DNA of 64,000 nt. Source: Phototrophicus methaneseepsis. Its GTDB lineage: Bacteria; Chloroflexota; Anaerolineae; Aggregatilineales; Phototrophicaceae. Below, one piece after another: positions 35,685-42,247 of the stretch. A program made the translations under genes and the position numbers. The notes under the pieces were generated by a model. That model did no database searches and was not told where the DNA came from. It was given only the letters and a program-made list of their open reading frames with translations. Numbering within the stretch: position 1 is the stretch's first letter; every line of letters begins with the position of its first letter. The DNA lies in contig NZ_CP062983.1 of the NCBI RefSeq assembly GCF_015500095.1, positions 1,240,001 to 1,304,000 of the forward strand. The letters are read 5' to 3'.

Positions 35685-35758
35685 GTACCTGTAGCTCAGT
35701 GGATTAGAGCGATTGTCTACGGAACAATAGGTCGGGGGTTCGAATCCCTCCAGGTACG
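35685..35758 (+). tRNA. tRNA-Arg (anticodon ACG)
   Basis: A full cloverleaf is readable. The acceptor stem is GTACCTG/CAGGTAC, the D-stem GCTC/GAGC, and the anticodon stem ATTGT/ACAAT with loop CTACGGA (anticodon ACG, wobble A to be inosine). The T-arm GGGGG-TTCGAAT-CCCTC has one G-T pair. The variable loop is 5 bases. The 3' end is G then CA; the CCA is not encoded. It borders the degraded region to its right. Confidence 0.96.
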
Positions 35759-35936
35759 CACAACGGGAATACACCTGAACGATGACCAGCCAAAGCGCTG
35801 GTTTTTGTTTTGTCCACTACGCCTGCTCCCTCTTTTCCACTCGTTATCTGCTCTGATACCTGTCGCAAATATTGGAATGGTGGGAGCAATTCCAGCTGTA
35901 TAATATTCCTCTATATCTTCCTGCCGACGACAAAAT
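35759..35936. other. Intergenic sequence after tRNA-Arg
   Basis: No gene is supported. Short open frames on both strands here are shadows of the tRNA and its flank. A CCAGCCAAAGCGCTGG hairpin followed by TTTTTGTTTTG at about 35784-35812 is a good terminator candidate for the tRNA transcript. Confidence 0.45.
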
Positions 35937-36054
35937 AACCACGCCTTGCAGACGTGCAGTCACCCGAAGGGCGGGATTTGCTGGTGAGTACAGCGGCGCA
36001 AGCCCGGAAGCAAATCCCGTCGAGCACTGCTAGACGGCATGTGAAGGCGTGGTT
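35937..36054 (+). ncRNA. Strongly folded element, candidate structured RNA of unknown class
   Basis: An 11-bp perfect helix AACCACGCCTT/AAGGCGTGGTT closes a 118-base segment. Inside, CGGGATTTGC (35972-35981) pairs perfectly with GCAAATCCCG (36010-36019), GCAGT pairs with ACTGC (35956/36026), and the apical part contains a GGC-GCAA-GCC hairpin with a GNRA loop. The nested helices and GNRA loop point to an RNA rather than a DNA site. I do not recognise it as tmRNA, RNase P, SRP or 6S RNA. The strand is set by proximity and is uncertain. It could be the 5' part of the intron-like sequence that follows. Confidence 0.45.
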
Positions 36055-36099
36055 CAATTGGGGATAAGTCGGGAAGTGAGTGGGTTCTAGAGTTTTTAT

Positions 36100-37767: not shown

Positions 37768-37802
37768 GCATGTAGACTCCAGCATGAACTATAAACCAAC
37801 CT

Positions 37803-38373
37803 TGGGGATTAGCGTAAATCAAGCAGATGATGGGACATTGCATTGGAATCTTTACCACCTGAATCGGATAGCACAAGTGCTGCTCCGTTACGGAGTAAAG
37901 TCAGCGCATCCGATGCGTCTTCCGACAGGTCAAGAGGATAGACTGGAACCAGCAATGCTCTAGACATTTTTGGAACTTGGCAAATCTATGCACTATCAGA
38001 TACACAAGCCTCCCCATTGATTTTGGAAGTCAATTTTGAAGGTGCTGCCGCTGCCACCCTCGAAACAGCTCGGCTATCGCCAAATGAAAACTATCTTGCG
38101 ATTGGCGGAGCGATTAATGATTCATCAGGGTATTTGATAATAATGAGTCTCGAATCGAAACAGGTCATTTTCGAGAAAACCTTTTCTGAACGTATTTGTC
38201 ATATTGATTGGATCAATCATTCAAAAATCATCTTCATACAATTCTCAAGCCAATGCGATACATCTTTTCTTACACCTACCTCGATTGATATTTTAGACAT
38301 AACCACACCGAGTCTGGAAAATATCTCGAATAGATTGTTAGAAATGCAGTGGTTGCTAGGCGATCCTTATTGA
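37803..38373 (+). pseudogene. Remnant of a beta-propeller-like coding region
   Basis: Between about 37960 and 38373 one frame reads as protein: GTWQIYALSDTQASPLILEV, then RLSPNENYLAIGG and SGYLIIMSLESKQVIFEK, which look like blades of a WD40/PD40 propeller. It has no proper start: a TAG closes the frame just upstream and the first possible start is the TTG at 38017. Another frame over 37803-37970 gives a run including LNRIAQVLLRYGVK that also ends in a stop. The region is best read as decayed gene pieces. Confidence 0.4.
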
Positions 38374-38817: not shown

Positions 38818-39783
38818 GTGCAAAAATCTGTATTAAAAATGGGGTTTATGATTTTTTTGGCGGTAGTGGCATTGACCTCACACGCGCAAGCCAACCCTGT
38901 ATCCACGCCAGCTCGATTGACCATTGGATTCTCCCAAGTTGGGACGGAAAGTGATTGGCGCACTGCATTTTCTGATACGATCTTCACGGAAGCAGCCCGA
39001 CGTAACATCGAGTTGCTGTTCCTCGATGCGGAGAATAGTCAGGAGAATCAGATCGCGGCGATTCATTACTTCATCGAAGCGGGCGTCGATGCGATTTTGC
39101 TCGCGCCTGTTATCGAAACTGGCTGGAATAGCATCTTGCAGGAAGCACAGCACGCCAATATCCCGGTAGTGATTATCGACCGCAATGTCACCGCAGATGA
39201 ATCGCTGTATTTGACGCGCGTGTCGTCAGATTTTCGTCATGAGGGACGTCTGGCGGCGGCATGGTTGGCGCAGGCCACTGCCGGACGCTGCAACATTGTG
39301 GAGCTAGAAGGCACGGTCGGCTCCAGTGCTGCCCGTGACCGACATATTGGCTTTTTGGAAGTGATGCAGCTCTTCCCTGATATGCGCATCACGGTCTCGC
39401 AGCCTGGTGACTTCCGACGTGAATTGGGTCAGCAGATCATGGAAGGAATCCTCAACACAGAAGATCCGTCGAAGATTTGCGCGGTGTGGTCACATAACGA
39501 CGATATGGCGATTGGTGCAGTGCAGGCCATCAAAAACGCGAATCTCGATCCCGGTGACGATATTCTAATAGTTTCGGTCGATGCGATCCCCGATATTTTT
39601 CTGGCGATGATGAACGGCGATACCAACGCCACCGTCGAATTGAACACCAATATGGCAGGGCTAGCATTTGACGCCATTGAACGCTATTTTAACGGCGAAG
39701 ATGTTCCGAAGTGGATACGCGTCACCGGTGGGTTATACTTCCCGGCGACGGCTGCCGAAGAATACGCTAGACGAACACAATAG
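38818..39783 (+). CDS. Sugar ABC transporter substrate-binding protein, YtfQ paralogue
   Basis: 321 residues with a signal peptide (LKMGFMIFLAVVALTSHAQA). The mature part is a type I periplasmic binding protein: LTIGFSQVGTESDWRTAFS, ENQIAAIHYFIEAGVDAILL and CAVWSHNDDMAIGAVQAI closely match E. coli YtfQ, the galactofuranose binder. It is a clear paralogue of the protein encoded at 41279, with most residues shared. A GTG start is used, with AAGGGTGG upstream. The gene lies next to a LacI regulator and outside the main transporter operon, so it may be an alternative binding subunit with a shifted ligand range. Confidence 0.85.
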   Translation: MQKSVLKMGFMIFLAVVALTSHAQANPVSTPARLTIGFSQVGTESDWRTAFSDTIFTEAARRNIELLFLDAENSQENQIAAIHYFIEAGVDAILLAPVIETGWNSILQEAQHANIPVVIIDRNVTADESLYLTRVSSDFRHEGRLAAAWLAQATAGRCNIVELEGTVGSSAARDRHIGFLEVMQLFPDMRITVSQPGDFRRELGQQIMEGILNTEDPSKICAVWSHNDDMAIGAVQAIKNANLDPGDDILIVSVDAIPDIFLAMMNGDTNATVELNTNMAGLAFDAIERYFNGEDVPKWIRVTGGLYFPATAAEEYARRTQ

Positions 39784-41278: not shown

Positions 41279-42247
41279 ATGAGAAATTGGAAGTTTGTTC
41301 TTATATCGGTGCTGGCGCTGGCGCTCCTGGTTCCTACCGCATTCGCCCAAGTCGATCCATCGGGTTCTGGCCTAACTATCGGCTTTGCACAGGTGGGTTC
41401 GGAAAGTGCATGGCGTACGGCCTTCTCCGAAGCTGTAATTGCAGAAGCAGAAGCACGGGGTATCAATCTCCTGTTCTCGGACGGTCAACAACGGCAAGAG
41501 AACCAGATCGCCGCGATTCGCTCCTTTATTGCGCAGGGTGTGGATGCCATCATCCTCGCTCCCGTTGTTGAAACAGGCTGGGACGAAGTCCTGCAAGAAG
41601 CTGCTGACAATGACATCCCGGTTGTGATCGTTGATCGCAATGTGACCGCTGATCGCTCGCTATGGGTGACACGCGTGTCTTCGGACTTCGTACACGAAGG
41701 TCGTCTGGCAGCGGCATGGCTGGCACAGGCTACCGCTGGTGACTGCGACATCGTTGAACTGCAAGGTACGGTCGGCTCTAGCGCTGCGCTAGATCGTCAG
41801 CAGGGCTTCAACGAAGTGATCGCATTGTTCGACAATATGGAAATCGTCCTGACGCAATCTGGTGACTTCACCCGTACAGGCGGCAAGGAAGTAATGGAAA
41901 GCTTCCTGAACACGATGGATCCAGCAGACATCTGCGCGGTATGGGCGCACAACGATGACATGCTCATCGGTGCGACACAGGCGATGGAAGAAGCGGGCAT
42001 TGATCCCGGTGACGATATTCTGACGATTTCAGTTGACGCGATCCCTGACATCTTCCTCGCGATGGCAGAAGGCAAGGCCAATGCGACAGTCGAACTCAGC
42101 CCGAATATGGGTGGCCCGGCTTTCGATGCGGTTGTGGCTTACCTTAATGGCGAAACGCTGCCAGACTGGATTCCGGTTGCGGGTGGTATCTACTTCCCAG
42201 ACACGGCAATGGAAGAATACGAAGCACGTAGTGGTGGTGGCGAGTAA
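41279..42247 (+). CDS. ytfQ: Galactofuranose-type ABC transporter substrate-binding protein YtfQ
   Basis: 322 residues with signal peptide ending near PTAFA. The mature sequence follows E. coli YtfQ almost segment by segment: GFAQVGSESAWRTAFSEAV, FSDGQQRQENQIAAIRSFIA, QGVDAIILAPVVETGWDEVL, VELQGTVGSSAALDRQQGF and HNDDMLIGATQAM. It captures a sugar (galactofuranose in the family prototype) outside the membrane and delivers it to the two permeases. GAGGAG precedes ATG 41279. It is the first gene of the operon under the LacI operators and is followed by the ATPase gene after 177 bases. Confidence 0.9.
   Translation: MRNWKFVLISVLALALLVPTAFAQVDPSGSGLTIGFAQVGSESAWRTAFSEAVIAEAEARGINLLFSDGQQRQENQIAAIRSFIAQGVDAIILAPVVETGWDEVLQEAADNDIPVVIVDRNVTADRSLWVTRVSSDFVHEGRLAAAWLAQATAGDCDIVELQGTVGSSAALDRQQGFNEVIALFDNMEIVLTQSGDFTRTGGKEVMESFLNTMDPADICAVWAHNDDMLIGATQAMEEAGIDPGDDILTISVDAIPDIFLAMAEGKANATVELSPNMGGPAFDAVVAYLNGETLPDWIPVAGGIYFPDTAMEEYEARSGGGE

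Follow-up and report, generated by a model that had tools for sequence, protein, structure and literature searches.

A hairpin family that sits on mobile elements of the class Anaerolineae most likely serves as a single-stranded DNA promoter or priming site and not as a non-coding RNA. One of its members lies in the genome of Phototrophicus methaneseepsis, within the 64,000-nucleotide stretch analysed here (termed the window). The fold, its covariation, the promoter motif with its geometry, the orientation of the neighbouring genes and the kinds of carrier were all obtained by computation, and the choice of the folding strand has statistical support. The initial annotation of the window copy had seen a structured element that might be a new RNA, a ribozyme relic or the RNA of a lost mobile element. 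The structured element, its covarying homologues and the leftover of a mobile element stand, whereas the RNA or ribozyme relic is probably wrong, since the promoter reads out of the hairpin base and would give a transcript without the hairpin.

Table 1. Features of the window and of the genome that contains it. Positions are those of the window, except for the copy pairs, which are given by their positions in the genome.
Feature	Position	Strand	Remarks
tRNA-Arg (ACG)	35685..35759	+	inserted stretch seems to begin just 3' of the tRNA
Probable full extent of the element with weak outer stem	~35920..36075	+	DNA-parameter fold; limits approximate
Reported relic hairpin	35937..36054	+	11-bp closing helix, inner helix, GGC-GCAA-GCC tip
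Closing helix, 11 bp	35937-35947 with 36044-36054	+	
Conserved apical 20-mer, window version TGAGTACAGCGGCGCAAGCC	35985..36004	+	family consensus TGAG-YGNAR-CGGC-RCAA-GCC
Decayed mini-hairpin GTACAGC	35988..35994	+	T.G closing pair (family G-Y-GNA-R-C)
-35-like box TAGACG, 3' arm	36031..36036	+	4/6 to TTGACA; looks decayed
-10-like box TTCAAT	36053..36058	+	16 bases after the -35-like box
PAPS-reductase-like gene fragment	37795..37952	-	same kind of mobile element
Copy pairs, same genome	335591/349872, 1008098/1021094, 4329363/4310544		E 2.6e-10 to 1.2e-3

The nested fold over 118 bases is present as the initial annotation had described it, with an inner helix of 10 bp (GGGATTTGCT/AGCAAATCCC). 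Folded as RNA, the window hairpin has a minimum free energy of -54.3 kcal/mol compared to -41.35 (sd 3.8) for shuffled sequences (z -3.41), and 1 of 200 shuffles was equally stable. That homologues retain it through compensatory changes shows the fold to be more than a chance product. A 361-base fold that takes in 226 extra bases is no better than shuffles (z -0.61), and the structure is therefore local. The true element is slightly larger than the limits first given (Table 1). No open reading frame of at least 60 aa runs across 35937-36054, which agrees with the original description of a non-coding element directly after a tRNA gene.

A short core shared with other sequences was first seen by BLAST in 61 genomes, namely its own and those of relatives. 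Searched as a pattern with up to three mismatches, this core occurs nine times, in 7 of the 154 genomes of the order, and its reversed control not at all. The window copy shares 75-79% DNA identity over 104-125 bp with hairpin 2 of three elements of the same genome, here called A, B and C. Six further copies in this genome form three same-orientation pairs that are 13-19 kb apart (Table 1), and two other genomes, G001 and G032, contain one such pair each. We built a model, R1, from an alignment of 10 copies (A2). Among 396 genomes of the class it has matches in 24 at E <= 0.1, 14 of which reach 1e-4, five of these 14 having supplied seed copies. The phylum sample gave 4 of 400 genomes at E <= 1e-4, which are the window genome and three of its class. 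The window copy, itself part of the seed alignment, scores 69.6 bits. The covarying homologues in related genomes that had been proposed as a check were found, compensatory changes included.

The R1 match set (75 of 139 loci searched) comprises 84 matches, of which 58 were kept. Those dropped are 10 duplicates from contig positions already represented, the near-duplicate L116 at the end of a contig, 7 opposite-strand echoes, 7 chance matches and 1 partial match in L136. Fifty-five of the kept hairpins score at least 33.5 bits; the three lower ones (L075, 31.5; L133, 28.7; L080, 24.4) were retained for their visible stems and context, and their scores overlap with those of the seven chance matches (19.8-31.2 bits). 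The latter come from loci of other phyla (L096, L112, L117, L119, L120, L127 and L134) that have the apical pattern and were judged to be chance occurrences for their poor stems (6-8 of 12 bases). An exact-pattern scan of species genomes recovered 50 stretches. Thirty-seven of them carry names that we take to be those of Chloroflexi groups, the group membership being presumed for some, and 40 of the 49 non-identical stretches have a stem match of at least 9 of 12 bases, a score used without a shuffle control. Copies that look real also occur in records under other names (L095, L114, L123, L126, L133 and L135). Among these, L095, from a record named Pleurocapsa minor, and L133 and L114, both filed under Alkalihalobacillus macyae, carry family hairpins; their names look wrong, or the bins mixed. 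The membership of L126, filed as an alphaproteobacterium, is uncertain: it scores 42.6 bits, its arms align over 21 columns only and it has no promoter call.

The initial annotation could not assign the element to any class it could name, and Rfam 15 has no family for it either. There was no match on the window element at the gathering score, nothing overlapping it up to an E of 10, and nothing at any hairpin in seven family loci scanned at gathering scores. IscB/omega-RNA, group II intron, twister and hammerhead were dropped for this reason, the last also because its core is not intact. Searches of plasmid, phage and viral-contig collections gave no match; the plasmid collection, which includes F, was searched with the window element and one SSB-side hairpin.

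Covariation supports the stem across the family. In A2, 12 of the 14 arm pairs are changed on both sides. The copies form 33 clusters, of which 31 are represented in alignment A4 (all except L071 and L004). Here 92.0% of the cells pair, whereas shuffles reach 62.0% and slid registers 29-40%, and the covariation score is 0.737 versus 0.187. The number of A4 pairs with any double change (11 versus 10.8 in shuffles) is uninformative. While the arms are variable, the apex is constant, with the consensus TGAG-YGNAR-CGGC-RCAA-GCC. Its positions 5 and 9, the closing pair of a mini-hairpin, are C/G in 29, T/A in 16, A/A in 6, T/G in 2 and A/G in 2 of the 55 in-register copies, and they covary (Fisher p 4e-6 on 32 clusters, L071 being out of register). 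Position 6 is G in 54 of these 55 copies, the window copy alone having A. For many copies the search pattern itself dictated positions 4, 8 and 10 and admitted only A or G at position 9, and the constancy of these four positions is therefore no independent evidence. Hairpins of the G-C-GNA-G-C type are small DNA hairpins of high stability.

The stem contains a promoter of the -35/-10 type that reads outward from its base. The strict motif, TTGACA (at least 5 of 6 bases)-N16-[TC]ANNNT, is found in the 3' arm of 13 of the 33 clusters, compared to none at N16 and at most two at other spacings in the reverse complement of the 5' arm, and a mean of 0.1 (maximum 1) in 40 dinucleotide-shuffle sets. 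Other spacers in the 3' arm yield 4 of 33 clusters for 14 bases and 0-3 of 33 for the rest. When 4 of 6 bases are allowed, the counts are 16 for the 3' arm, 2 for the other arm and 1.1 (maximum 4) for shuffles; the clusters are related by descent and hence not independent. Twenty of the 33 clusters lack the strict promoter, and a looser call failed in four (L102, L085, L110 and L126). In the called cases the distance between the box and the apical GCC varies from 7 to 43 bases; what subtypes with different arms have in common is thus the -35/-10 spacing. In the window copy the promoter is degraded (TAGACG-N16-TTCAAT). Its TAGACG occupies the same place as the TTGACA of two relatives, L073 and L113, and its -10-like box, taken alone, is no better than shuffles of the same arm (p about 0.5).

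We examined the DNA folds of the 27 of 33 representatives that have a promoter call and a measurable loop. At least three extra unpaired bases of the 5' arm face the -10 box in 18 of 26 cases, and the same 5'-side excess is seen about 12 bases upstream of the -10 in 24 of 27, whereas at offsets from +4 to +16 it occurs in only 1-3 of 26-27. Other peaks lie at -28 (10 of 14), at -26 (9 of 21) and at +18 to +24 (6-9 of 20-24). Moreover, the arm mismatches of the 33 representatives, counted in a symmetric alignment, are biased towards G.T over A.C (72 versus 41, binomial p 0.0046) and towards A.G over C.T (92 versus 38, p 2e-6). Counted by cluster, the G.T excess is weak (19 versus 8 with 6 ties, p 0.052). 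This bias favours the + strand, the one on which the hairpin was first described, as the strand selected to fold.

We then surveyed the genes next to the hairpins. A labelled gene on the left (5') side is present for 39 of the 58 hairpins; all 39 lie on the opposite strand. The 36 that are no more than 1 kb away comprise 10 XRE, 9 RNase H, 9 SSB and 6 f8 protein genes and two others. These labels are based on similarity to reference proteins taken from the same loci, and 19 of the 58 hairpins have none. A naive count of the longest left ORFs is less clear (36 on the opposite versus 19 on the same strand). The f8 gene encodes 183 aa and accounts for 6 of the 39 labels; Pfam finds nothing in its product, and that it is an RNase H is a guess. 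In element A hairpin 1 adjoins SSB (PF00436), in element B hairpin 2 adjoins RNase H (PF00075), and in several elements hairpin 1 lies upstream of ssb. One further copy precedes ArdC (PF08401, 4.8e-36) in the same geometry. SSB starts 20-122 nt from the apical motif; as the longest ORF was taken to define the start, the shortest values (20-55 nt) reach into the arm.

Apart from the ArdC copy, a third case, the carriers are of two types. A T4SS coupling protein and a relaxase-like gene occur near several copies, and conjugative carriage was judged from these. Further element genes encode a DUF6094 methyltransferase-helicase and PAPS-reductase-like, ThiF-like and RepB-primase-like proteins. The small relaxase-like protein has three invariant histidines (H130 and H142-x-H144), and relaxases make up all seven of its top fold matches, obtained with a low-confidence model (pLDDT 61) at E values of 0.003-0.06, none below 0.001. 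No solved structure matched it by sequence. Its family occurs in L088, L106, L038, L075, L081, L097, L104, L107, L118 and L125; of two members scanned with Pfam, one matched TrwC (E 0.0025) and the other Rep_OBD (E 0.016), both weakly, and the one member scanned with NCBIfam gave none. Carriers of the second type are integrated elements with a rolling-circle Rep (Rep_trans or REP_ORF2-G2P), and in three loci a tyrosine integrase was found. The Rep gene is on the hairpin strand in 5 of 9 loci (L084, L086, L087, L093 and L123), two of the other four having short right flanks. In these elements the promoter is soon followed by the start of a regulator gene on the hairpin strand, so that here the promoter could serve double-stranded DNA.

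Some neighbourhoods show further features. Restriction-modification and nuclease-helicase genes, possibly cargo, lie beside hairpin elements in L070 (232-4096) and L072 (29-5154), and a gene for a group II intron reverse transcriptase/maturase (L104, 2374-4164) is close to an SSB-side hairpin. In L094 (4547-6329) two different family hairpins are separated by 1.7 kb, and the transposase-like gene in the interval resembles IS110. Insertion of IS110 into the hairpin was considered in L094, L116 and L125 and is not supported.

The window copy most plausibly remains from an element that had inserted next to tRNA-Arg. G001 has a tRNA-Arg (ACG) locus that lacks the following stretch. A PAPS-reductase-like scrap lies 1.7 kb from the window hairpin, with a carbon-nitrogen hydrolase gene between the two. 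The scrap is 84.8% identical over 158 bp to element C (E 5e-44), and its intact relative in element A is a PF01507 protein. Together with the homologous hairpins on elements A, B and C, this scrap bears out the suggestion of a lost mobile element. There is no opposite-strand operon 5' of the window hairpin, which, unlike the family, is not upstream of entry genes. The window copy is solitary, decayed and operon-less, and it is probably inactive. A second copy of the tRNA end was not found within the window. Over 176 bp, the end of the tRNA-Arg gene with the following stretch (35736-35909) shares 70% similarity with the corresponding end of a tRNA-Leu gene and its following stretch in G001 (L147, 4764-4935), as if one element end had visited several tRNA genes. 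Further along the window, 38818-39783 and 41279-42247 encode two similar proteins, by eye of sugar-binding type, that look like a tandem duplication.

What, then, is the working form of the hairpin? We infer that it is folded single-stranded DNA, because the promoter points out of the hairpin, the folding strand is the template of the neighbouring operon, and the carriers have single-stranded stages. The hairpin would act while the element is single-stranded, either on entering a cell by conjugation or in the form of a rolling-circle intermediate. One strand would fold into a long stem capped by two small hairpins, and RNA polymerase would bind there, meeting a duplex -35 box and a -10 box opposite the looped-out stretch of the other arm. 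Transcription in the cell would initiate and proceed outward from the stem base, using the 5' arm and the adjoining single strand as its template, and the product would be the mRNA of the 5'-side operon (the SSB, ArdC or RNase H operon), a primer for the second strand, or both. Once the DNA has turned double-stranded the hairpin would be lost and the start switched off. The scheme assumes that the hairpin strand is the transferred strand.

The same structures might instead be single-strand origins or primosome-type sites whose sole job is second-strand priming, an explanation to which we give some, if clearly lesser, weight. Their occurrence in rolling-circle elements fits, as does the apical ARCGG, which is near AAGCGG, a motif linked to primosome assembly (PriA-type site). 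AAGCGG is present once in a 171-base stretch of phiX174 that contains no close match to the whole apical motif. However, the repeated placement of the hairpin upstream of SSB, ArdC and RNase H genes suggests that gene expression is involved too. Priming as the sole job also overlaps with the reading as a promoter, because Frpo is described as doing both; Masai and Arai 1997, going by its title, reportedly presents it as promoter and priming site alike. PMC4595007 describes a single-strand origin (sso) on ICEBs1 and the use of primosome-type sites by some plasmids.

A + strand non-coding RNA encoded by the mobile elements, the view of the initial annotation, is unlikely. It would account for the covarying stem and the GNRA-type loop, and tolerance of G.T on the + strand would fit RNA too. 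However, the promoter conserved inside the 3' arm points out, so that a transcript would lack the hairpin, the opposite-strand SSB genes start so close to the 5' arm that a + strand promoter would hardly fit upstream, and Rfam has no match. A minus-strand RNA, forming a riboswitch-like structured 5' leader of the leftward operon, would explain why the hairpin lies just upstream of operons. It would, however, bear A.C and C.T in place of G.T and A.G, opposite to the observed bias, and the same apex precedes very different genes, which makes a leader highly improbable. A recombination site or MITE-like palindrome without a promoter role is the least credible explanation: long palindromes do occur on mobile elements, and the DNA similarity of elements A, B and C stops at or just after hairpin 2, but the -35/-10 spacing is fixed and confined to one arm, the neighbouring genes obey an orientation rule and variable arms carry a constant apex.

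As a putative single-stranded DNA promoter or priming site, the family can be compared to several known systems. At the minus-strand origin of M13/f1, RNA polymerase primes on a hairpin of single-stranded DNA, a likeness to the proposed action of the family by description and not by sequence. The virion RNA polymerase of phage N4 uses a small DNA hairpin with a three-base loop as its promoter; this is N4's own polymerase, whereas the family has a sigma70-type promoter. RNA-polymerase-type sso, such as sso1 of ICEBs1, resemble the family as orientation-specific folded single strands linked to Rep genes, again by description and not by sequence, and they differ in that the family also lies upstream of SSB- and ArdC-type genes. 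In many cases sso are recognised as promoters by RNA polymerase, as stated in PMC4595007.

The closest resemblance in layout is to Frpo/ssi of plasmid F and its relatives. These are long hairpins formed by one DNA strand, the stem of which contains the -35 and -10 boxes; they precede ssb and further entry genes, for which the folding strand is the template (PMC9849209 and PMC11541004). Plasmid F carries two such sites, with ssb downstream of one of them (PMC9849209), and family elements have two hairpins. The Frpo site of F, when folded here, has a similar layout and lacks the two-hairpin apex of the family. Two family members tried gave no plasmid match, hence no sequence similarity to Frpo of F. 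The family further differs in its host phylum and in being found also in integrated rolling-circle elements. Frpo-like sites lie upstream of ssb in other plasmids, and there are candidates in other conjugative elements; single-stranded DNA promoters are best known from plasmid F and relatives, with candidates elsewhere, for example in an insect metagenome (PMC11541004).

A more tentative idea, which we hold to be rather doubtful, concerns the apex. The G-Y-GNA-R-C mini-hairpin and GGC-RCAA-GCC might together be a portable module that recruits a dedicated factor to single-stranded DNA and that has been swapped among conjugative and rolling-circle elements on unrelated stems, which would make it a new kind of start site beyond Frpo and sso. 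Such a factor would be a part of RNA polymerase, a primase or an element protein.

Among the openly accessible journal papers searched, none joins Frpo with Chloroflexota, and the one that names integrative and conjugative elements together with Chloroflexi and Anaerolineae is a review on another subject. Our analysis yields a searchable model and an exact apical motif for a family that is common to conjugative and rolling-circle elements and that lies upstream of SSB and ArdC genes. If our interpretation is true, such a covariation-backed family in another phylum would make early expression from the incoming strand a more general strategy.
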